Origin: a virus
Reading direction: 5' to 3' (one strand)
IMG/VR virus record: IMGVR_UViG_3300017744_000117
Location: 1-26,428 of that record
DNA: 26,428 bases
How positions within the stretch are numbered: position 1 is the stretch's first letter; every line of letters starts with the position of its first letter. Made by a program: the position numbers and the translations under genes. This document shows positions 3,468 to 26,428 of this stretch, piece after piece. The notes under the pieces are model-generated. The model ran no database searches. It saw nothing but the letters and a program-made list of their open reading frames with translations, and was not told where the DNA came from.

Positions 3468-3710
3468 CTATTTTTTTATATTTTTTTCTAATTCTTCTAT
3501 CCTCTTGAGAATCAAGGGATATTGTTTAGCAAATTTGGCATCTTTCTTTGCTAATTCCAAATCATATTTTTCTGCAAAATGCTGCATGAATCTGTCGACT
3601 TGTTTCTGGAACCAAATCCCACCGGATGTACCTTGGAACCATTGATAAAATGAGCTTCCTATTACAGAACTCAATATTGATTTTAATGCTAGTATTGTTA
3701 ACCAATACAT
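3468..3710 (-). CDS. Small membrane-anchored protein at the end of the lysis group
   Basis: An 80-residue protein. Residues 1-25 are largely hydrophobic (MYWLTILALKSILSSVIGSS) and suggest one membrane segment; residues 36-80 are charged and helical, ending in RIEELEKNIKK. Its ATG shares bases with the TAA of the lipase gene (TAATG), so translation is probably coupled. It is the last gene before the nrd promoter. Position next to the spanin-like pair and the lipase makes a lysis role (holin-like or a lipase partner) conceivable, but a single N-terminal segment with a long charged tail is not diagnostic. I do not recognise the family with confidence. Confidence 0.75.
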   Translation of the reverse strand: MYWLTILALKSILSSVIGSSFYQWFQGTSGGIWFQKQVDRFMQHFAEKYDLELAKKDAKFAKQYPLILKRIEELEKNIKK

Positions 3711-4468
3711 TATTTGGCCTTTTTAAGTTTGCCTAAAGCTTTTACATAATTAGGCATTCCATGGTCTACTATTCCATCAAAGAATTTAAATCTTTTCCAT
3801 GAATTAAATATACCATAAAAGAAATCTGACCATGTAGGTTTTACAGCTTTATTACCGAATCTATCAAAATAAATCATTTCACCATGGTGTCTAAATCCTA
3901 ACCATGCTGGCGGTATTCTACAAACAATATCATTATTGTTCATAAATCTATAATGAGGGCATTTGATATTTCTAATGAATTTAGGTCCACCAACTCTTGG
4001 AGATCCAAATGTATGTAGTTCTACTGGTTGGTATCTAGTAGCAGCAATTGTTGCCATTGCAGCACCAAGTGAATGACCAGTCATATACACGTCTTTACGA
4101 ACTTTTAATTGGTCATTATGTTCTATTTCTGCTAATACATCCATCCACAAATCGTTAACTTCTTGTTGGAATCCACTATGAACTTTACCTCCAGCTTTGG
4201 CTGCGTTTTTAATAACATTTAGATCAGCCATAACATCATTTAGTTTAGAAGGTTCAGTACCTCTAAATGCAAACCAAAGATCATTACGATCTTTTGCAAT
4301 AAGTACTTCAGCACCATCTTTTGAAACTAATTTTGCCCAAGGGAATCCCATTTTTTTACAAGCTGCTACAGCCTGTTTTTCATTTTTATAAGCATGTGCG
4401 GAAAGTTTCGCTGCTACTTCAGCTCTTCCCCAATCGCTTAATTGTTCTTTCATTCTAGTTGTCGCCAT
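3710..4468 (-). CDS. Class 3 (alpha/beta-hydrolase) lipase
   Basis: A 252-residue class 3 lipase, expected to hydrolyse acyl esters of glycerolipids. The catalytic set is complete: nucleophile S133 in TGHSLGAAMA, an acid at about D180 in NNNDIVCRIPP, and H236 in DHGMPNYV. The FRGTEP segment at 69-74 is the usual oxyanion/lid region, and TFGSPRVG (153-160) is another family hallmark. No signal peptide is visible, so it would act in the cytoplasm, be released by lysis, or ride in the virion. The start ATG has a GGAG site seven bases upstream, and the gene overlaps the preceding o-spanin-like gene by 14 bases. Its neighbours suggest a role in dissolving the envelope at lysis; help in entry is the alternative. 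Confidence 0.9.
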   Translation of the reverse strand: MATTRMKEQLSDWGRAEVAAKLSAHAYKNEKQAVAACKKMGFPWAKLVSKDGAEVLIAKDRNDLWFAFRGTEPSKLNDVMADLNVIKNAAKAGGKVHSGFQQEVNDLWMDVLAEIEHNDQLKVRKDVYMTGHSLGAAMATIAATRYQPVELHTFGSPRVGGPKFIRNIKCPHYRFMNNNDIVCRIPPAWLGFRHHGEMIYFDRFGNKAVKPTWSDFFYGIFNSWKRFKFFDGIVDHGMPNYVKALGKLKKAK

Positions 4469-14486: not shown

Positions 14487-14625
14487 GGCTTGCAATCTTT
14501 TCTACCCAAACTTGGTAGCCTTTTTCTTTCATACCGCTAGCAAATTCCGCGGCGGTTTCTTCTAATTCATAGAGATATTCCGCCACGATATTTCCGTTCT
14601 TTTTAGCTGTAACTTTAAAAATCAC
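14479..14625 (-). CDS. Small conserved-looking protein, GTG start
   Basis: A 48-residue protein. The frame is open further upstream (to 14691), but that part lies inside the 3' phosphatase gene; the GTG at 14625, with GGTGG six bases upstream, gives a neat small overlap. The sequence reads IFKVTAKKNGNIVAEYLYEL, then AAEFASGMKEKGYQVWVEKI: strand, helix, strand, compatible with a small alpha/beta fold. It overlaps both neighbours, suggesting coupled translation. Function unknown. Confidence 0.65.
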   Translation of the reverse strand: MIFKVTAKKNGNIVAEYLYELEETAAEFASGMKEKGYQVWVEKIASHD

Positions 14626-15091
14626 CTGGAGCCACCTGTAAACACTTAAGTCCTTTTTCTCTCCACATATCAACAACTCTTTGTCGATCATCTAAGATGA
14701 ATTGAACTGACCAAAATGGTTGTACATATTCTTCGTACATTTCCCACTTTACAATAGAATCTTCTCTAAAGTCTTTATCAGCTCTTGTGAAAATATGATC
14801 AAATGGTACTCTGTGTCTTTTTAACCAAGACCTACAGATTAATTCTGCAGAAGCTGGCCTTGCAGTAAAGATAATAATAGTATGATCTGCTGAGAATCGA
14901 TGTACGATATCTCCTACAACAGGATCCAACCCATCTTCACTAGCCCTAGACCAGTCATAAGGATCTCTATCAGTAAATCCTTCACGATGACACAAAGTTC
15001 CGTCCATATCAACCAAAACAGCTGGCGGATGGACACCCTGAGTTTCAGTACTTCCCATGTCAAACCTTTTAAATAATTCTTGCTGATCCAT
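14615..15091 (-). CDS. Stand-alone polynucleotide 3'-phosphatase (HAD domain of T4 Pnkp/PseT)
   Basis: A 158-residue HAD-fold phosphatase matching the C-terminal phosphatase domain of T4 polynucleotide kinase: VDMDGTLCH with the nucleophile and acid/base Asp (28 and 30), FTARPAS at about 75-81, and a C-terminal block FILDDRQRVVDMWREKG, then QVAPGDF, nearly the same as the end of T4 PseT. No kinase P-loop domain is present, so it would remove 3' phosphates (or 2',3'-cyclic ends) without 5' kinase activity, in RNA or DNA end repair. The ATG at 15091 has no ribosome site; the in-frame ATG at 15058 has AAAGG six bases upstream and may be the true start. It sits in the 15691 promoter unit. Confidence 0.9.
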   Translation of the reverse strand: MDQQELFKRFDMGSTETQGVHPPAVLVDMDGTLCHREGFTDRDPYDWSRASEDGLDPVVGDIVHRFSADHTIIIFTARPASAELICRSWLKRHRVPFDHIFTRADKDFREDSIVKWEMYEEYVQPFWSVQFILDDRQRVVDMWREKGLKCLQVAPGDF

Positions 15092-15732: not shown

Positions 15733-16383
15733 TTATAAAGGAGTAAAGATTTTATCAATTATAGTACCACATTCTTTGGCTATTTCAATGTGTTCTTGCT
15801 GTGTTCCATGAGCTCCACGTAGTTCTATATAGTGAATCCAGCTTCGTAGCGTCCCATTAACATACATTCTAGACATAGTTAAGCCTTCAGGTAATACTGC
15901 ACGAGCTTGTTCTTTTGCTATACCAGCTTCTATAGCCCAATCGTAAGCTTTTCTACATCTTTCAATAATTGTTTCTTGGTATGATTCCCAAATATAATTG
16001 ATAGTATCATCTTTATCTAATGGTATAGAATTTTGACGATTTTTAAGATCCTGCATCCTAGCTTCTCTTGTAGTAAACTTTAGATCATTAGTTGGATCTG
16101 CATATCTTTGACTAAATTCTTGAAATGAAAACGACCGGTGTCTTAAGATTTGACGAGCAATATCTCTTGGACAATTAATTTCCATACATACAGAAACCAT
16201 TTCCAATGGAGACCAGTGTTTATGTTTGATTAGATATTTTACCAGCTTCTCAGCTGTTTCCTCATTGAACTGATTATCAGGGTTTGATACCCTAGCGCAA
16301 TAAGCAACCAGCTGTAGAACATCATTTGGAATATCGAAGTCTACAGCTGGTTGTGAATATGATATAAGTTTCACATCCATCAT
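15733..16383 (-). CDS. thyX: FAD-dependent thymidylate synthase ThyX
   Basis: A 216-residue ThyX that makes dTMP from dUMP with FAD, NADPH and methylene-tetrahydrofolate. The signature RHRxxSxxxxSxR is complete (RHRSFSFQEFSQRY, residues 81-94), and HKHWSPLE (54-61) supplies the conserved N-terminal His/Glu region. The length is typical. It starts MMDV; either Met is possible. It is last in the 20152 promoter unit. It fills the role taken by Td (ThyA type) in T4, so the other thymidylate-synthase-fold gene at the right edge can be devoted to hydroxymethylation. Confidence 0.97.
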   Translation of the reverse strand: MMDVKLISYSQPAVDFDIPNDVLQLVAYCARVSNPDNQFNEETAEKLVKYLIKHKHWSPLEMVSVCMEINCPRDIARQILRHRSFSFQEFSQRYADPTNDLKFTTREARMQDLKNRQNSIPLDKDDTINYIWESYQETIIERCRKAYDWAIEAGIAKEQARAVLPEGLTMSRMYVNGTLRSWIHYIELRGAHGTQQEHIEIAKECGTIIDKIFTPL

Positions 16384-19336: not shown

Positions 19337-19590
19337 TATCGATACCTCCTATCTGGTCTTAATTGCATTGATTTTTCTTTCTTTTTCCAGCGAGCTATAC
19401 CTTCAGCTTTTTTCCTTTTGCGTTTTGCAGTAGGCTTTTCATAGAATTCTCTACGTCTAACTTCTTGTACAATACCAGCTCTTTCACATGCTTTTCTAAA
19501 TTTTCTTAGAGCAACATCAAATGGCATTGGCTTTGATGGTCTTTTATCTTTAGGATGTCTCTTCCTATGTCTTAAATCTATACTAGGCAA
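19336..19590 (-). CDS. rpsU: Phage-encoded ribosomal protein bS21
   Basis: An 84-residue bS21 homologue. The core [18 protein letters not shown], then [20 protein letters not shown], follows bacterial S21 closely. Relative to E. coli S21 it has a basic insertion after the start ([15 protein letters not shown]). The start is TTG at 19590, overlapping the last codons of the peroxiredoxin, with GGGAG about nine bases upstream; the ATG at residue 22 would remove the N-terminal strand. bS21 exchanges readily on 30S subunits near the mRNA anti-Shine-Dalgarno site, so a phage copy may bias initiation to phage messages (established idea for viral S21; not shown here). Some SAR11-infecting T4-like phages are reported to carry S21. 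Confidence 0.95.
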
Positions 19591-20092
19591 CGTACTGATC
19601 TCCCGGTTCCCAACTACATCCGGTTAATCCACCGGCTTTGAGAGCCTGAATTGTTCTTAAAATTTCATCAGCACTTCTTCCTGTATCTAAAGCATTTGCA
19701 GATACATGTTGAATAGTACCTTCTGGATTAATGATAAAAGTTGCTCTTAAACAAACACCTTCCTCAATATCCAATATACCACATTCACCTGATAGATACA
19801 AACCAGTATCACCAGCTAATGTGTGTTTAATTTGTCCAATAATATCATTTTGCAACTTCCAATTAAGTTTGCAATATTCATTATCACCTGATATTCCTAA
19901 CACAATAGCTTCATCCATTAGTTTATCCATACCTGCAATTTCAGTTGGACAAATAAAAGTAAAGTCTTTTGGATAGAAATAAATTACTGCCCAAGATCCT
20001 TCCAATTGCTCGGAAGAAACTGTGACATGTTGATTCTCAGCATTGATACCATTAAGGCGAAACGCTGGGAATTGATCATTTACACTAAGCAT
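19583..20092 (-). CDS. 2-Cys peroxiredoxin (AhpC/TSA family)
   Basis: A 169-residue thiol peroxidase that reduces hydrogen peroxide and organic peroxides. The peroxidatic site [13 protein letters not shown] is intact (C48, with the Thr/Ser of the family nearby), and a C-terminal [14 protein letters not shown] gives a likely resolving C159, the 2-Cys AhpC arrangement. It is first in the operon after the promoter at 20124-20152, with a GGAG site five bases before the ATG. It is an auxiliary metabolic gene: protection of host and phage DNA or of the reductase radical from peroxide during infection is the likely benefit. A phage copy in an operon with uvsX and bS21 is unusual. Confidence 0.93.
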
Positions 20093-20123: not shown

Positions 20124-20152
20124 ATTATAACATAAATTGGTCCAATTGTAAA
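20124..20152 (-). promoter_or_regulatory. Sigma70-type promoter, third copy, overlapping the methyltransferase stop
   Basis: Minus strand: TTTACA (20147-20152), 17-base spacer ending TTTATGT, TATAAT (20124-20129). AAAAAAGTCC lies just before the -35, as at 15686-15700. The -10 overlaps the TAA stop of the upstream gene (20125), so the promoter is embedded in coding sequence. It would drive peroxiredoxin, bS21, UvsX, gp41 and ThyX. Confidence 0.8.
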
Positions 20153-21312
20153 GGACTTTTTTCATATTCATAGGTTTTTTTCTTGTTATCTTGTACCAAA
20201 AAGTCAGTATCTATTAGATCTAATCGACCTTCCAAATACTTTTTAACCATATATGCTGGATGTTCAGCAGTTGTCACTGGTACATTTTGACAAATATGAT
20301 TAAGAGATCTTTTAGGATTTAAAAGTTCAAAATCAGTTGGAAGCTTCATAATCGATAAAGCTTCTCGTACGGTTAAAAATCTGTCTTCATCTGGATGAGT
20401 TAGGTTGGTTGGCATATGACCAACAAAAGCACCTATTTTGTCTACTGGTATTTCAACACCTTTTCTCATAATGTTGCCACCAGCTTTCAGCTTATGGTAT
20501 TGTCTATCACATTTTTTTGCAACAATATCATAGCCTTTTTCTCTCATCCATTTTGCTACAACTTTGTAGTTTGTTCTTTCTTCAATATAGTCTTGTAACC
20601 CAACTGATTTGTCTAGTTTTGAAACAAACTCTGCATGGGTAATTCCACCTTCTAATTCTTCTAAAATATACTTATAGTATGGTTCTTCTGAAGGGATCTT
20701 ATCATTAGTTAATACGCTCATAGGATCGTTTGGATCGCGATTAATAGCACGTATATCATCAGCAATGAGTGATGGTTTTCTATCAATATATTCAAACATT
20801 GGTACTTGATCTCCTTTCCAAAAGAAGTAAAAAGTACGATCTCTGACTTGACTTAAACCATGTAATAAAGATTTAGTTTTAAATATACTGAATGTATATC
20901 CATTGGCTTCACCAATTTTTCTTAATCTTTTAACTACAGGTTCACCCATTTTAGATGCTAATCTTGGAGCATTTTCTCCCCAAAACACTTTTGGTCTAAC
21001 TTCAGTAAGCACATATTCAGCAGATTTAATCATCCAATCATTCATTGGACTATTACTTGCAGCCTGTGGACTAAGTGAACTTAATCCTGCGCATGGGCAT
21101 ACTGTATTTACTACATCAACTCCTTCAGTATGTTTTTGACCTTTCGATAAATTTAAATACGGAATTTCGTTATTATAGTAATTTAGTAAGTGTTCTTCAT
21201 TAGCTTGAAATCCATCAAACGTAAGAAAATACTTTGGTTTATTTTTAAATATATTTTCCATTGCAATGGTTTCACCACCAATTAATGGAACTATGCTTGC
21301 CCATGTGTTCAT
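20125..21312 (-). CDS. C5-cytosine DNA methyltransferase-like protein
   Basis: A 395-residue protein with m5C-methyltransferase motifs in order: a diverged AdoMet loop at 6-18 (SIVPLIGGETIAM), catalytic VCPCAGLSS (C74; usually PCQGFS), motif VI GENAP (112-116), motif VIII QVRDRTF (155-161), then FLTVREALSIMKLPTDF and CQNVP near the C-terminus (motifs IX-X). I use the ATG at 21312, one base after the upstream stop, with GAGGA ahead of it; the longer frame to 21426 runs through the neighbouring gene. In a phage expected to carry hydroxymethylcytosine, a C5 methylase has few substrates, so it may act before full substitution, on host DNA, or with another chemistry. Last gene of the modification-type cluster. 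Confidence 0.85.
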   Translation of the reverse strand: MNTWASIVPLIGGETIAMENIFKNKPKYFLTFDGFQANEEHLLNYYNNEIPYLNLSKGQKHTEGVDVVNTVCPCAGLSSLSPQAASNSPMNDWMIKSAEYVLTEVRPKVFWGENAPRLASKMGEPVVKRLRKIGEANGYTFSIFKTKSLLHGLSQVRDRTFYFFWKGDQVPMFEYIDRKPSLIADDIRAINRDPNDPMSVLTNDKIPSEEPYYKYILEELEGGITHAEFVSKLDKSVGLQDYIEERTNYKVVAKWMREKGYDIVAKKCDRQYHKLKAGGNIMRKGVEIPVDKIGAFVGHMPTNLTHPDEDRFLTVREALSIMKLPTDFELLNPKRSLNHICQNVPVTTAEHPAYMVKKYLEGRLDLIDTDFLVQDNKKKTYEYEKSPLQLDQFML

Positions 21313-21313
21313 A

Positions 21314-22315
21314 TTAAAAGAAATCCTCAAGTGTGTTAGTTGCTTCCATACCATTCCAATATGGATAGTACTCTCTTGATAAATGAATTGATTGTGGCTT
21401 TTCCATATAGTCAAAATCAAGTTCACCCTTTTTATTTAATAAATATTTAGTCCATTGAATACCTAATCCGGAATCATGAATAATTTCATTAAATAATTTT
21501 CGAGCGCTATTACGCTCTTCCCATGTACCACTAAAAGGTTTACCATTATAGAATCCTGATTTAGGAATCTTTCGTGATTCATTTTCGATTGGTAGAAGTT
21601 CGTATATACGACCTGGAACAGATAAGTTCTTCACCTCCTCGACATATCGTTCAGCAAGATCTTTTACGTTCTTCTCCCAACCTCCTTCTAATCTACATAC
21701 ATGATGTCTTATATCAATATTACCAAAATAAAATTCTACTGATCCCTCAGTTTCTATATTGATAAATGATTTAAGACCTTCGTTTAATGCTCCATTTAAA
21801 GTTTTAAACGGAACACTATTCACAGTCCAACCTGGCCTATACATACAGATTGAATGAGAATCTCCTACTACCAGTTTTTTTGTTTGATTCGGATAATCGA
21901 CTCGTTCAGCTTCTTCGAACATACGTTCAAGATTTTCGAGATCGACCTCATTCCATTCTGGTTGTACATCCTTTTTAGCTGATTCAAGTTTTGATTGAAC
22001 CATTTGGTGGTATGGTGGAAAGTCCATTCCAATCGAATAAACTTTACCTTTGAACTTAGAAAAGTTAACAGTGTTTTTAACGTATGGAAAACCATAGACG
22101 CCACCAAACATATTAATGCCACCAGACCAGTCATTCCCATGATAAACCCAAAGAGCATCATAATTGTTGTGGTCTTCAATTTCTCCACCGTAATTGATAT
22201 CGCAGTGTCCATATTTCTCCTTAATCATATCGCCATATATTACACCTTGAGCTCCTCTATGAGAAGCCGCTCTTTTAGCAATAGGTATAAATGGGCAGTT
22301 AATTATATTTTTCAT
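21314..22315 (-). CDS. SGNH/GDSL-like enzyme in the putative modification cluster
   Basis: A 333-residue protein. Central VVGDSHSICMYRPG (149-162) is an SGNH block I with its Ser, and YFGNIDIRHHVCRL (196-209) has the glycine/asparagine and DxRxH pattern of related SGNH-type proteins. The N-terminal 140 residues (AQGVIYGDMIKEKYGH ... YDALWVYHGNDWSGG) look like a separate domain. It overlaps the gene to its right by ATGA and is one base from the methyltransferase-like gene. Members act as esterases or acyltransferases; here acylation or deacylation of a modified base or of inositol is a speculative role. Motif evidence is moderate; the exact catalytic set is uncertain. Confidence 0.65.
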   Translation of the reverse strand: MKNIINCPFIPIAKRAASHRGAQGVIYGDMIKEKYGHCDINYGGEIEDHNNYDALWVYHGNDWSGGINMFGGVYGFPYVKNTVNFSKFKGKVYSIGMDFPPYHQMVQSKLESAKKDVQPEWNEVDLENLERMFEEAERVDYPNQTKKLVVGDSHSICMYRPGWTVNSVPFKTLNGALNEGLKSFINIETEGSVEFYFGNIDIRHHVCRLEGGWEKNVKDLAERYVEEVKNLSVPGRIYELLPIENESRKIPKSGFYNGKPFSGTWEERNSARKLFNEIIHDSGLGIQWTKYLLNKKGELDFDYMEKPQSIHLSREYYPYWNGMEATNTLEDFF

Positions 22316-23373
22316 ATTAAAAATTCTTCTATTGATGATGGTTTATGTTGTAAACTTTGTACAATCGACGTCACATCAGTATTTGCAATTTGTCTTTTTT
22401 CAATTCTTGATGTATTCTTTTTCATATCGCAGTATACTCCGTATTGACATAACGCCACTTCAGCAGTATAACACATCAATTCATTTTGTGGAAATGAATA
22501 TACTTCTTTATCCTCCACAATAACATTGTGCCAAAAATCATTAAATTCAATTTTGCCAAATAATTTTTCTTGGTTTTCTCTTACCCAAACAACTTGATTT
22601 CCAGGTGAACATTCTCTATTAGTTAATTTTGGAAATAACATTTTAAGAGTAAGTTGACATCCTGGTCCTGGCACTACAAATGCCTCATCATGATTGAATG
22701 GTAAGTTAGGATTAGTTGATTGGTCAGTAGCTCCATGATAACCATAGTAAGGACCTATACCTTCTTTCGAAAGTAATATTTCAACACATTCTTTTAAAGA
22801 AGTACAATTAAGAATTTTATCAACAGTACCATCTACTAACCAATCTGATAACCAAACAATCATATTGACTGCATGAGTATCAAATCCATATTTCTGTTTT
22901 GCAAATTTATTTGATGCTCCCATAAGAGATGTATGAAGTTCAGTCTTTGACCAAATAGAATATCCCAAACCTTTGGCTCTATCTAAATTAGATCTAATTG
23001 TACTTACATATTCTGGATCGATTAAAGCTCGTTCAAAATCAGTGTAAGCTTTCCTTGGATCTAATTCAGCATTAAGAACTCTATGGCAGTCTCTTCCTCC
23101 ATAAAAGTGAGTAATTAAAAAATTAAGTACTCTATTCTTTTCAGACATTTCTTTATTTGTGGATATATTTGTTGCAATGTATCGTAAACGATCATCCATT
23201 GTTACATTAGGACCAAAGTATTCTGTGTTCCATTGTATTGCGGGATCATCTCCATTAAAAGATTCAGATATACCAGCTCGATAATCAAATCCTTCAATAA
23301 CACGTTTCCAAAAATAAGCAATATCATCTGCTACATTTTGATCAACATATTTCCACAAATTAGTACTTGACAT
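22312..23373 (-). CDS. HhH-derived base-hypermodification family protein (aGPT-Pplase / hydroxymethyluracil-kinase helical domain type)
   Basis: A 353-residue all-helical protein. Residues 205-217 GIGPYYGYHGATD followed at 229-238 by DEAFVVPGPG match the hallmark GxGxF/Y..Y...D ... PGPG of the HhH-derived family predicted in alpha-glutamyl/putrescinyl-thymine phages, also found as the helical domain of 5-hydroxymethyluracil DNA kinases (Iyer and colleagues; Weigele-group biochemistry). No P-loop kinase domain is attached. The gene overlaps the HAD gene upstream and has GAGGA just before its ATG. With a dCMP hydroxymethylase in the same cluster, the expected target is a hydroxymethylated pyrimidine in DNA. 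Assignment is by motif memory and needs a profile search. Confidence 0.6.
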   Translation of the reverse strand: MSSTNLWKYVDQNVADDIAYFWKRVIEGFDYRAGISESFNGDDPAIQWNTEYFGPNVTMDDRLRYIATNISTNKEMSEKNRVLNFLITHFYGGRDCHRVLNAELDPRKAYTDFERALIDPEYVSTIRSNLDRAKGLGYSIWSKTELHTSLMGASNKFAKQKYGFDTHAVNMIVWLSDWLVDGTVDKILNCTSLKECVEILLSKEGIGPYYGYHGATDQSTNPNLPFNHDEAFVVPGPGCQLTLKMLFPKLTNRECSPGNQVVWVRENQEKLFGKIEFNDFWHNVIVEDKEVYSFPQNELMCYTAEVALCQYGVYCDMKKNTSRIEKRQIANTDVTSIVQSLQHKPSSIEEFLI

Positions 23374-23755
23374 GTTCCTCGCTTTCTCTAACCAAATGTA
23401 TTATTTGTAAATCCGGATGAACCTTTTTAATTTCAGCAATTTGAATAGGATCATCTTCAAAGTGTAATCCTACTTTATAGCCATGAACTTCTTGAAGCTC
23501 TTTTATCATTTGAGCTTTATGCTTACCAGAAGCTTCACGACTATAATCAGGATGATTTCTTTCCAATGGATTAAACAATACTCTATTATATATGTTTCTA
23601 GATTCAAGCATTTTTTCAGTTTCTTCTCTTTGTTCGAACGACCGCCCTGTGATAATAATGTCCATATCACAAGGTCTTACGCCATAATGCTCTTCACCAA
23701 AATAGATGACACCATCAATATCAAAAGTATTAACTAAGACTTCAGACATAATCAT
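23360..23755 (-). CDS. HAD-superfamily phosphatase
   Basis: A 131-residue minimal HAD protein without a cap: motif I FDIDGVIYF (D12, D14), motif II ITGRSF (T36), motif III Lys at SGKHK (K78) and motif IV HFEDDP (E100-D102). All four catalytic motifs are present. The gene overlaps the end of the inositol-phosphate synthase by 14 bases and the start of the next gene, so it belongs to that unit. Candidate substrates are inositol-1-phosphate, a nucleotide or a phosphorylated base; context favours the first, but the family is promiscuous. Start is the ATG at 23755 or the one at 23749. Confidence 0.85.
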   Translation of the reverse strand: MIMSEVLVNTFDIDGVIYFGEEHYGVRPCDMDIIITGRSFEQREETEKMLESRNIYNRVLFNPLERNHPDYSREASGKHKAQMIKELQEVHGYKVGLHFEDDPIQIAEIKKVHPDLQIIHLVRESEEHVKY

Positions 23756-25031
23756 TCTCTGCAGATTGAAATGTATGTGGTAGATCTTTTGCTTTTGGAC
23801 GATTGTCTGCCATCTGAGGTTCTGTCATTGGAGTTACTACTCGTCTTGCTAAAGCATCACATTCGAATTTAGCATCTTCTGTTTTCAACTGAACAGGTGG
23901 AGTCTTTTGAGTCCAAGCTGATGGACCTCTTAAGAAACCTACAATACCCATTTCAGAAGCTACCTTACAAAAACGAATTGCTGAAACAACTACGCCACCA
24001 GAATTTGGTGAATCTTGTACAGAAAGTCTTGCCGACATTTCATAACGAGCACCAGCAAATCCATAAGCAACCATATCAAAATTTGCAATTTTATTATCAG
24101 ATGAAATATAATCTCCACCTGGTTTTTGTAAAACTGTTAATGATGGTCCAGCATATAGAGTCATACCAGAAGTAGTTTCATCTCTTACAATATTTTGACC
24201 TTTCAAAACATTTTCTTTTGAAACATGTTTATTATGTAGCCTATACTCTTTAGCCATATTTAAGAAATCAGTATTAGCAGTTCTACCTGTTCTAATATGT
24301 TCTTGACCTTGAGTAGAACCAGCTGCCATATTCATTTGAATATGTTGTGTAACCATAAGACCAGAATCTAACATAGCACCTTGAAGAACTTCAGACATTC
24401 TTGAAGCACCCCAAGCTGATCTCATATCAGATCCAACAATAGTTAAACCTTTATCGATAAATCTTTGTTCAGTTTCTACAGCATCTTCAGTTGATATAAG
24501 TGTAGGAATACAATTTACAAAATGTACTCCTGCAGCTAAAGCTACATCAACCCAATACTTTGAAGCATCTTCTGAACCTACCGGTAAATAGTTAATAAGA
24601 ACATCTACTTTATGATATTGTAAAAGTTCTACAGTTCTATCAAATGATTCTGCTGGTATTGCACCATTGACAAATGTAACTTCATCAGGATAATCATTCA
24701 TATGAGGAGCAATTCCATCCAGTTCTGGAGCAGAATATACTACTGCATCATTAGATACACATGAAGAATTACTTTTAGTTGTAATCTCATCAACGTGATC
24801 CATTGCGCAATTAGGTTGAGCTCTTAAAGCTTCAGCTAATTTTTTATTTACTTTACGTTTGTCTATATCGAATCCAACTACAAATTTAATATCATGTACT
24901 GAATATCCACCGATATCCTCATACATAAGACCTACTTTGTCTTGTGGGTTTTCGTTATAGTATTGAATGCCTTCCACTAGGGACTTGGCACATGATCCGA
25001 CACCTACAATGCCGACTTTTATTTTTGACAT
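23742..25031 (-). CDS. ino1: myo-Inositol-1-phosphate synthase (Ino1/MIPS)
   Basis: A 429-residue NAD-dependent synthase converting glucose-6-phosphate to myo-inositol-1-phosphate. The Rossmann start is KVGIVGVGSCAKSLVEG (5-21); INYLPVGSEDASKYW (146-160), TIVGSDMRSAWGASRM (197-212), NTDFLNMAKEYRL (253-265) and SVQDSPNSGGVVVSAIRF (337-354) are conserved blocks shared with bacterial Ino1. The overall form resembles the shorter bacterial/archaeal type (M. tuberculosis Ino1, about 367 residues) rather than the yeast enzyme, with extra residues around 238-252 and at the C-terminus. AAAGGAGA precedes the ATG. It is the first gene after a 70-bp gap and heads the overlapping modification-type cluster. 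Phage copies are unusual; inositol may feed a DNA modification or a lipid. Confidence 0.95.
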   Translation of the reverse strand: MSKIKVGIVGVGSCAKSLVEGIQYYNENPQDKVGLMYEDIGGYSVHDIKFVVGFDIDKRKVNKKLAEALRAQPNCAMDHVDEITTKSNSSCVSNDAVVYSAPELDGIAPHMNDYPDEVTFVNGAIPAESFDRTVELLQYHKVDVLINYLPVGSEDASKYWVDVALAAGVHFVNCIPTLISTEDAVETEQRFIDKGLTIVGSDMRSAWGASRMSEVLQGAMLDSGLMVTQHIQMNMAAGSTQGQEHIRTGRTANTDFLNMAKEYRLHNKHVSKENVLKGQNIVRDETTSGMTLYAGPSLTVLQKPGGDYISSDNKIANFDMVAYGFAGARYEMSARLSVQDSPNSGGVVVSAIRFCKVASEMGIVGFLRGPSAWTQKTPPVQLKTEDAKFECDALARRVVTPMTEPQMADNRPKAKDLPHTFQSAENDYV

Positions 25032-25069
25032 ATTTTTCTCCTTTATATCAGTTTATTTAAGTGAGTAGT

Positions 25070-25098
25070 TTGACTGGATTAGAGTAGCTCACTATAAT
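25070..25098 (+). promoter_or_regulatory. Perfectly spaced sigma70 promoter pointing rightward (antisense)
   Basis: On the plus strand TTGACT (25070-25075) and TATAAT (25093-25098) are separated by exactly 17 bases, in the gap between the MIPS gene and the membrane-protein gene. An imperfect inverted repeat (AGTGAG at 25060-25065, CTCACT at 25088-25093) surrounds it. Transcription from here would run antisense into the membrane-protein and dCMP deaminase genes. It is the best -35/-10 pair I see on the plus strand; activity is unproven. Confidence 0.5.
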
Positions 25099-25102
25099 AT
25101 AG

Positions 25103-25396
25103 TTATAACTGTTGAAATAAGTTCCTTAATAAGAAAATTAATCCAACACCATTTAATAGAATCAAAGCTCTATCTTTCCAAAGGACTGCAACAACAGTCC
25201 ATAATGCAACACCCATTGTAGATATAACTAGGTCAAATAATAAAAACCCATCTATTCCACGAATTGACATTGCTGTTAAAATAAAACCAGATGCAATCCA
25301 TTTAATATACCAATCTAATGTATATTTTGGAGTTGCTGATTTATAAATTCTTTTACTATTTTTTAATTCGTTTTCTGTAAATTTTTGTTTAGTCAT
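25103..25396 (-). CDS. Small multi-pass membrane protein
   Basis: A 97-residue protein with a hydrophilic N-terminus (TKQKFTENELKNSKRIYKS), an amphipathic DWYIKWIAS, and about three hydrophobic segments (about 33-48, 49-70, 75-94), including WKDRALILLNGVGLIFLL. I recall small DWYxKWIAS...WKDRALILLNG proteins in marine phages with no known role. The start overlaps the end of the dCMP deaminase gene by eight bases. After its stop comes the 70-bp gap with the rightward promoter. It might sit in the inner membrane near nucleotide metabolism genes by chance only. Confidence 0.8.
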   Translation of the reverse strand: MTKQKFTENELKNSKRIYKSATPKYTLDWYIKWIASGFILTAMSIRGIDGFLLFDLVISTMGVALWTVVAVLWKDRALILLNGVGLIFLLRNLFQQL

Positions 25397-25868
25397 ATTT
25401 TACTAACTCGTATTTTACACCAGCTTCCTTAAAAAATTTATTTGTTAATTCAAAAGAGTCATCCCATTTTTTTGGGAGATTTTGCATCCATGGAGATATC
25501 ACTCTTTTAATTCCAACTTGGATAATTGCTTTAGCACATTCATGGCAAACTGGTAATCCATAAACAAAAAGATCTGCACCATCTAATGAAACACCATTCC
25601 ATGAAGCATTGTAAATACAATTCATTTCAGCATGAACAATTTTTTTATATTTTTCTTCACGATTATCATAATCGCTGTCATCCATACCTCTTGGATATCC
25701 ATTGTATCCTTGAGCTAAGATTTGGCCTTTTGTACCAACTGCAATTGCACCAACTTGAGTGCTTGGATCTTTACTCCAAGTAGAAACTTGTCGTGCAATA
25801 CCAAGATATCTTGGCCACCAAGTAGAATCTCTTTTGCCACTTTCCATATTTAATAATCTATGCTTCAT
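25389..25868 (-). CDS. cd: dCMP deaminase
   Basis: A 159-residue zinc-dependent deoxycytidylate deaminase making dUMP from dCMP, which feeds ThyX. Zinc/catalytic motifs are HAEMN (H79, E81) and PVCHEC (C108, C111); other family blocks are STQVGAIAVG (36-45) and GYNGYPRGMDD (54-64). The ATG at 25868 overlaps the TGA of the hydroxymethylase gene (ATGA); a second Met at residue 8 is possible. It branches the dCMP pool: deamination toward dTMP here, hydroxymethylation by the adjacent enzyme. Confidence 0.96.
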   Translation of the reverse strand: MKHRLLNMESGKRDSTWWPRYLGIARQVSTWSKDPSTQVGAIAVGTKGQILAQGYNGYPRGMDDSDYDNREEKYKKIVHAEMNCIYNASWNGVSLDGADLFVYGLPVCHECAKAIIQVGIKRVISPWMQNLPKKWDDSFELTNKFFKEAGVKYELVKYD

Positions 25869-26428
25869 TTAACTAAATCAAAATGTCTTTCATATACATG
25901 TAAATTTTGTACTTGCCAATGCATGTCACCAGCATCCATGTGTAATTCCCAAGCCAATTGGTGTAGAACATATTGTTGCCAAGCATAATCATTACGATAG
26001 CCAAAGATCACATCATTAGAACGCATTTGAACTACAGCATGTAGTTTAGAATCACGATCATAATATGTAACTGAATTAGTACAAATAAAATCATTTTTGC
26101 CATTTTCATTATACTCTTTCCAAATACTTGGACGTGTATAAATCATTGAAGCTCTACGAGAATCTGGATTTGCTTCCAATTCATTAATTACTTGTTCAAA
26201 TTGATTGTAGTATTTGTCTGACCAAATTAAGTGACCATAGTTTGAATTGATTTCACCATGTTCATTTGCTGAATATTGCCAAGCTTTAGGTGGTTCATCA
26301 CCATACGGAATATCATTAATGTTAGTAGATTGGCTATCATACCATTCTATTTCTGCATCAATATAGTCATCGTTTGGTTTACCAAATATTGCATCTTCAT
26401 CTGCAATAAATGAGGCACCAATCATTTC
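25865..26428 (-). CDS. 42: dCMP hydroxymethylase, T4 gp42 type (5' end beyond window)
   Basis: A thymidylate-synthase-fold enzyme that makes 5-hydroxymethyl-dCMP. Across the 187 readable residues it follows T4 gp42: IGASFIADEDAIFG, GEINSNYG, NPDSRRASMIYTRPS, DFICTNSV with the catalytic Cys, and MRSNDVIFGYRNDYAW. The key discriminator is Asp in RND, where true dTMP synthases have Asn (FNIASY); T4 gp42 has Asp there, which selects dCMP over dUMP. The first ATG in the window (26425) is internal, since GASF lies about 36 residues into T4 gp42; the true start is to the right. It ends at HVYERHFDLVK, some 28 residues before the T4 C-terminus. It implies hydroxymethylcytosine in the phage DNA. Confidence 0.92.
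   Translation of the reverse strand, partial: EMIGASFIADEDAIFGKPNDDYIDAEIEWYDSQSTNINDIPYGDEPPKAWQYSANEHGEINSNYGHLIWSDKYYNQFEQVINELEANPDSRRASMIYTRPSIWKEYNENGKNDFICTNSVTYYDRDSKLHAVVQMRSNDVIFGYRNDYAWQQYVLHQLAWELHMDAGDMHWQVQNLHVYERHFDLVK

Follow-up and report, generated by a model that had tools for sequence, protein, structure and literature searches.

Phages are known to decorate hydroxymethylated pyrimidines in their DNA by several routes. In phage T4, 5-hydroxymethylcytosine (hmC) made with the help of the gene 42 product is glucosylated, and yet the Aeromonas phages 44RR2.8t, 31, and 25 carry gene 42 without a known glucosyltransferase (Petrov et al. 2010, PMC2993671). In thymidine hypermodification, the base is activated by a DNA kinase, and phage ViI contains the ether-linked base 5-(2-aminoethoxy)methyl-dU (PMC6449724). 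Here we describe a gene block in the IMG/VR virus record IMGVR_UViG_3300017744_000117, the whole of which (26,428 bases) is the window analyzed. The analysis was computational and covered gene identities, the residue specific for deoxycytidine (dC), fold relationships, gene linkage, and replacement of glycosyltransferase modules. It indicates that the block is very probably a cytosine-decoration module, and that the attached group is, with fair probability, inositol or an inositol derivative placed on hmC after replication.

Gene content of the module

All module genes lie on the minus strand, and the coordinates assigned in an initial sequence-only reading are retained. In order of transcription they are listed below, followed by ThyX, which is encoded elsewhere in the window.

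25865-26428, minus strand: T4 gp42-type dCMP hydroxymethylase, truncated at its 5' end where the contig stops at 26428 (phmmer; Thymidylat_synt, 5.8e-18)
25389-25868, minus strand: dCMP deaminase (PF00383, dCMP_cyt_deam_1, 2.1e-18; phrog_174, 2.7e-42)
25103-25396, minus strand: small DUF6552 membrane protein, accessory (PF20189, 4.5e-15)
23742-25031, minus strand: myo-inositol-phosphate synthase (MIPS/Ino1; PF01658, Inos-1-P_synth, 1.1e-7)
23360-23755, minus strand: small HAD phosphatase (phrog_415, 1.5e-8)
22312-23373, minus strand: HhH-fold base-modifying transferase of the HMUDK_hel family, lacking a kinase domain (PF18723, 2.4e-17)
21314-22315, minus strand: SGNH-superfamily hydrolase or acyltransferase (motifs and structural model)
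20125-21312, minus strand: DNA C5-methyltransferase-like protein, probable start at 21312 (PF00145, DNA_methylase, 7.8e-14, 52.3 bits)
15733-16383, minus strand: ThyX (PF02511, 1e-42)

Profile, motif, and fold evidence bears out the identities first proposed for gp42, the deaminase, MIPS, and the HAD, HhH, SGNH, and C5-methyltransferase-like proteins, with small corrections. From MIPS through SGNH, each gene shares a few bases with the next. The overlapping run was originally extended to the C5-methyltransferase gene, and this part probably does not stand: its probable start (Met39, which gives 395 aa, the usual length of homologues) abuts the SGNH gene, so that the apparent 113-base overlap would disappear.

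Predicted synthesis of the hydroxymethylated base

The target base of the module is predicted to be cytosine. The thymidylate synthase (TS)-like protein matches T4 gp42 (1b49) with a phmmer E-value of 1.5e-64, compared with ~1e-9 for the E. coli TS, and it retains an Asp at the position of T4 D179 and E. coli N177 (RNDYAW); the claim that it is a gp42-type dCMP hydroxymethylase is thereby upheld. An Asp at this pyrimidine-selecting position of the TS family directs the enzyme to dCMP over dUMP (PMC8670742). It is kept in all 206 of the 206 gp42-family open reading frames in the fetched loci, including divergent members of ~32% identity; 132 of them, representing 86 different C-terminal sequences, lie in loci that carry MIPS. 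The canonical TS of Caulobacter phage Cr30 has Asn at the same position. A full-length copy of the truncated gene is present on a near-identical contig (L009:8430-9167; L numbers denote fetched loci).

The product is more likely to be hydroxymethyl-dCMP than 5-hydroxy-dCMP, since the window protein shares 56-57% identity with Tequatrovirus gp42, compared with 32.6% with a Mosigvirus homologue, and Mosigvirus enzymes make 5-hydroxy-dCMP (PMC13390438). ThyX is predicted to be a separate source of dTMP, leaving the TS-like enzyme free for dCMP. The DUF6552 gene is found in 39 of 89 MIPS loci.

Position and linkage of the cassette

The cassette occupies a slot downstream of gene 42 that relatives fill with other modules. 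In some, the slot contains a gene for an AGT-like DNA alpha-glucosyltransferase together with short-chain dehydrogenase/reductase, epimerase, and UDP-glucose dehydrogenase genes; in others, the genes of a UDP-galactopyranose mutase cluster and a phrog_14998 protein; in others again, nucleotidyltransferase (NTP-transferase) and glycosyltransferase genes. It is because the cassette fills the place where relatives keep alpha-glucosyltransferase or UDP-sugar modules that we consider cytosine decoration very probable. A search for the AGT family found none in 12 long MIPS records and found it in 7 of 14 gene-42 records in which the MIPS search was empty, the latter serving as a positive control (Fisher p 0.006, indicative only, the sets having been chosen by content and several records being fragments). 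The sequence-only reading saw no glucosyltransferase in the window, and for the AGT family this absence extends to the 12 long MIPS records.

A further variant of the slot, uncharacterised, carries a gene of the same SGNH family and no MIPS (L149:3688-9116, L150:4693-8900, L274:8629-11500, L275:8614-12500). It encodes a 345-459 aa protein without a Pfam match, a pyridoxal phosphate (PLP)-type protein (phrog_7093, threonine dehydratase), and often a third unknown protein. This variant is a candidate for an amino-acid-type decoration of hmC.

Linkage within the cassette was assessed in loci fetched with module proteins as queries, and the co-occurrence counts consequently carry sampling bias. 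In the set retrieved with MIPS, the HAD gene lies within 6.5 kb of MIPS in 83 of 89 loci. When SGNH, HhH, and gp42 were added as queries, near full-length MIPS, HAD, HhH, and SGNH genes were found together in 96 distinct loci, in which MIPS identity to the window falls from 100 to 43%. Recurrence of this four-gene core over such a range argues that the association is not due to chance. The order MIPS-HAD-HhH-SGNH is seen in 77 of 127 distinct MIPS loci and SGNH-MIPS-HAD-HhH in 24; most of the others appear to be cut by contig ends. The cassette varies in position, being located beside UvsX/DnaB, beside NrdA, or elsewhere. A PF00303 gene is present in each of the 14 long module records, and the ino1, HhH, and SGNH genes co-occur with gene 42 across diverse phages. 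Of the outcomes named in the sequence-only reading as refuting it, none that could be checked computationally was observed. Close MIPS relatives occur in at least 167 viral contigs and the SGNH family in at least 581. A scan of genome contigs yielded nine loci, seven of them from records titled as metagenome-assembled genomes (MAGs).

In some relatives, FkbM-type methyltransferase genes are inserted in the cassette (L008:9060-9986, L018:3927-4646, L066:9826-10638). Their presence suggests that these enzymes may methylate the attached group.

Inositol synthesis genes

The inositol genes are predicted to be active. MIPS matches M. tuberculosis Ino1 (1gr0) with an E-value of 6.9e-51 across 388 residues. 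Its residues K314, D340, and K376 align with K284, D310, and K346 of 1gr0, which we take to be active-site residues of Ino1, and are conserved in at least 97% of 121 homologues. The protein scores 194.9 bits (2.1e-57) against TIGR03450, the mycothiol-type INO1 equivalog, which is under the cut-off of 638 bits. The second match in the PDB is the five-membered-cyclitol-phosphate synthase 6k96 (E 1.6e-25).

No Pfam family matches the HAD protein significantly. Its motifs DxDGV, TGR, K, and DD are intact, with D12, D14, G15, T36, G37, R38, K80, D101, and D102 conserved in at least 97% of 124 homologues. Given its adjacency to MIPS, it is presumed to be an inositol-phosphate phosphatase.

The HhH-fold and SGNH proteins

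The HhH protein belongs to the hypermodification families by both profile and fold, as first proposed. It scores 63.7 bits against PF18723, for which the curated cut-off is 25, and the helical domain is the only one that Pfam finds in the 353 residues; a P-loop kinase domain is absent. Foldseek and VIA-align agree in ranking PUGT (8z2n) first among the PDB matches to its structural model (pLDDT 90). PUGT, from phage PaMx11, is a 5-phosphomethyl-deoxyuridine glycinyltransferase, and the model aligns with it over 224 residues (Z 11.2, root mean square deviation 3.9). The similarity is only moderate, since Foldseek alone gives an E-value of 0.04 (probability 0.97). The next-ranked matches are to the queuine salvage enzyme DUF2419 and to OGG1/AlkA-type HhH glycosylases. 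In BFVD, the model strongly matches ORF233c of Aeromonas phage 31 and the 5-hmdU DNA kinase of SP10. Among the HhH proteins, almost no variation is seen in the hairpin GIGxYYGYH or in Asp229, which follows it. Sequence profile searches of the PDB, started from the alignments of the HhH and SGNH proteins, returned nothing notable. In hhalign, the HhH profile gave no signal against the Cr30 amino acid:DNA transferase (ADDT), the phage 25 neighbor gene, or the proteins of the MIPS-less PLP/SGNH module; these links therefore rest on fold or position rather than sequence. The sequence-only reading had also suggested that this protein could activate the base. Judging from the model, it is more likely to be a transferase that couples a group to the base.

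Alleles of the HhH gene form classes of at least 55% identity. Two of the classes are each represented on all three of the most frequent MIPS backgrounds, and a third is found on two of these, which indicates that the gene has been exchanged recurrently between otherwise similar modules. Such exchange would be expected of a gene whose product determines the final decoration or masks it. Divergent alleles (24-35% identity) are also observed where the MIPS/SGNH background is near-identical, and similar alleles where it is divergent (L094, L113, L134).

The SGNH assignment, likewise suggested at the outset, is supported by both motifs and fold. The motifs GDSH and GNIDxRHH show no variation, nor does a late His (S153, N199, D201, H311), and blocks I, II, III, and V (G151-D-S-H, G175, G198-N-I-D, H311) are unchanged in 30 rows of the alignment. 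The model (pLDDT 88.5) matches carbohydrate and polyvinyl-alcohol esterases, the best with a Z of 13.5. SGNH genes 72-90% identical to that of the window are found on Planctomycete MAG contigs (L299, JADHSL010000095.1; L300; L301), which probably derive from phages and were binned together with bacterial sequences. In the C5-methyltransferase-like protein, the motifs PC, ENAP, and QxRxR (P111 C112, E151 N152, Q193 R195 R197) are conserved in at least 97% of 87 homologues; a phmmer search of this protein against the PDB found no match.

Proposed route and alternative explanations

From the first nucleotide to the arrival of the MIPS product at DNA, we propose the following order of steps. gp42 would form 5-hydroxymethyl-dCMP for incorporation into DNA, and dTMP would come from dCMP deaminase and ThyX. 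MIPS would convert glucose-6-phosphate to inositol phosphate, from which the small HAD protein would free inositol. The HhH transferase would flip the modified cytosine out and join an inositol hydroxyl to the exocyclic methylene, as PUGT does with glycine and 5-phosphomethyl-dU. The SGNH protein may be an acyltransferase or esterase that either places an ester leaving group on the hydroxymethyl or acylates the attached inositol, the two being equally possible. The base might thus be activated by the SGNH protein, through such an ester, or else by the C5-methyltransferase-like protein. In some relatives, an FkbM methyltransferase would be added. The linkage chemistry has a precedent in the 5-(2-aminoethoxy)methyl-dU of ViI, which makes ether coupling to hmC chemically plausible. 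In its most specific form, the proposal is that the product is 5-(inositolyl-oxymethyl)cytosine, an ether-bound cyclitol built by the HhH transferase with an SGNH-made ester leaving group in place of a DNA kinase; this we put forward only tentatively.

Several observations weigh against inositol decoration of hmC. The known activation route is missing, as a P-loop kinase was not found in the module; the query for a wider kinase search was a Klebsiella phage May relative with no P-loop Pfam match of its own, so that a kinase may be encoded elsewhere. The SGNH family is not inositol-specific, since it is found in MIPS-less modules and in Aeromonas phage 25. Phage 44RR2.8t is not among the MIPS matches despite its SGNH-HhH fusion, and Stenotrophomonas phage Moby has MIPS but none of gene 42, PF18723, or ADDT. 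To these is added the sampling bias of the co-occurrence counts.

Some of these observations would be explained if HhH and SGNH instead added an amino-acid-derived or acyl group to hmC, with MIPS and HAD linked to them only by shared timing. PUGT, the nearest solved fold, transfers glycine, the same SGNH family accompanies the threonine dehydratase-like PLP protein in MIPS-less modules, and 44RR carries SGNH-HhH without MIPS. This explanation is nevertheless unlikely: MIPS, HAD, and HhH stay adjacent down to 43% MIPS identity and at varied genomic positions, no PLP gene was seen in MIPS modules, and FkbM methyltransferases, which are of a sugar type, join MIPS cassettes. The same methyltransferases, together with the second-ranked match to 6k96, could instead mean that the synthase makes another cyclitol or that the transferred group is inositol phosphate or a methylated inositol. 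We regard this as slightly less likely again, M. tuberculosis Ino1 being a far better match and its active-site residues being kept.

It is also improbable, and a little more so, that MIPS is an auxiliary metabolic gene without any connection to DNA, serving for example a host solute or lipid in a cytosine-modifying phage. Moby could be read in this way, but its MIPS gene is located between a GTP cyclohydrolase gene and QueC-like, tRNA-guanine-transglycosylase (TGT)-like, and QueE-like genes (L089:7207-12621), which together resemble a 7-deazaguanine DNA-modification set. In the cultured phage Cr30 (L090:5732-10257), MIPS and the same HAD are close to ADDT and TAGT (TET-associated glycosyltransferase), and in the marine phages MIPS occupies the decoration slot downstream of gene 42. 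Three separate contexts thus place MIPS among genes for DNA modification, though Moby shows that there is no strict tie to hmC. By far the least credible alternative is that the SGNH protein is a DNA glucosyltransferase like the T4 beta-glucosyltransferase and that the phage glucosylates hmC. A Pfam match to T4-Gluco-transf (PF09198) hints at this, but at an E-value of 0.089 and 12.9 bits it is under the cut-off of 27, and the SGNH fold and invariant motifs described above largely refute it.

If inositol is indeed attached to hmC, it would represent a new and widespread chemical class of DNA decoration. It would also suggest what gene-42 phages without a glucosyltransferase (44RR, 31, 25) place on hmC. 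An ether-linked polyol is expected to be glycosidase-resistant. Inositol and hexose are isobaric, the nucleosides inositol-hmdC and glucosyl-hmdC both having a calculated [M+H]+ of 420.16, and inositol-hmC could therefore have passed as glucosyl-hmC by mass alone. No description of inositol or its synthase in phage DNA modification was found in the searchable literature, although papers on thymidine hypermodification or PUGT may mention MIPS earlier.

Other genes of the window

The window comes from a marine T4-like phage with a bacterial host. It also encodes UvsX, a DnaB-type helicase, and ribonucleotide reductase, in addition to ThyX. An AhpC-type peroxiredoxin gene (19583-20092) adjoins the module and is present in only six loci of the first set, all of them window-like. 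Genes for a class 3 lipase and a PNKP-type phosphatase are located at 3710-4468 and 14615-15091, respectively.

Comparison with known systems

The module shares with the hmC pathway of T4 a gp42 with the dCMP-selecting Asp, a dCMP deaminase, and T4-like replication genes, and it lies in the slot that holds AGT in relatives. It differs in having MIPS, HAD, the HhH transferase, and SGNH instead of an AGT. With thymidine hypermodification (M6, PaMx11, ViI, PhiW-14, SP10; HMUDK/PUGT/ADDT) it has in common an HhH transferase of the PF18723/PUGT/ADDT group that follows a hydroxymethyl-pyrimidine synthase. Those systems, however, act on deoxyuridine and use a P-loop kinase domain and amino-acid enzymes, whereas the window has dC as its base, no kinase domain, and an inositol synthase. 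The MetaGPA modules for 5-carbamoyloxymethyl-dC are similar in their TS-family enzyme with Asp, their dCMP deaminase, and a PRA-PH gene near the modification gene; they differ in using a carbamoyltransferase, and inositol is not mentioned in their description (PMC8670742).

Aeromonas phages offer further parallels. In phage 25 (L091:5776-9047), UDP-galactopyranose mutase, the phrog_14998 protein, and an SGNH homologue are adjacent, making galactofuranosyl-hmC a candidate for its DNA. Phages 44RR2.8t and 31 resemble the window in having gene 42, no glucosyltransferase (PMC2993671), and both SGNH and HhH domains. In these two phages the domains are fused in one 795-residue protein, which argues that SGNH and HhH act in consecutive steps. 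The fusion gene of 44RR2.8t lies directly downstream of a sodium/sugar symporter gene (L088:6408-10388), the product of which has the sodium/glucose cotransporter 2xq2 as its closest solved relative (E 3e-103). Unlike in the window, this symporter adjoins the fusion in place of MIPS, and the group is perhaps taken up instead of synthesised. As 44RR2.8t is cultured and combines gene 42 and the SGNH-HhH fusion with the lack of a known glucosyltransferase, it makes the inositol proposal testable.

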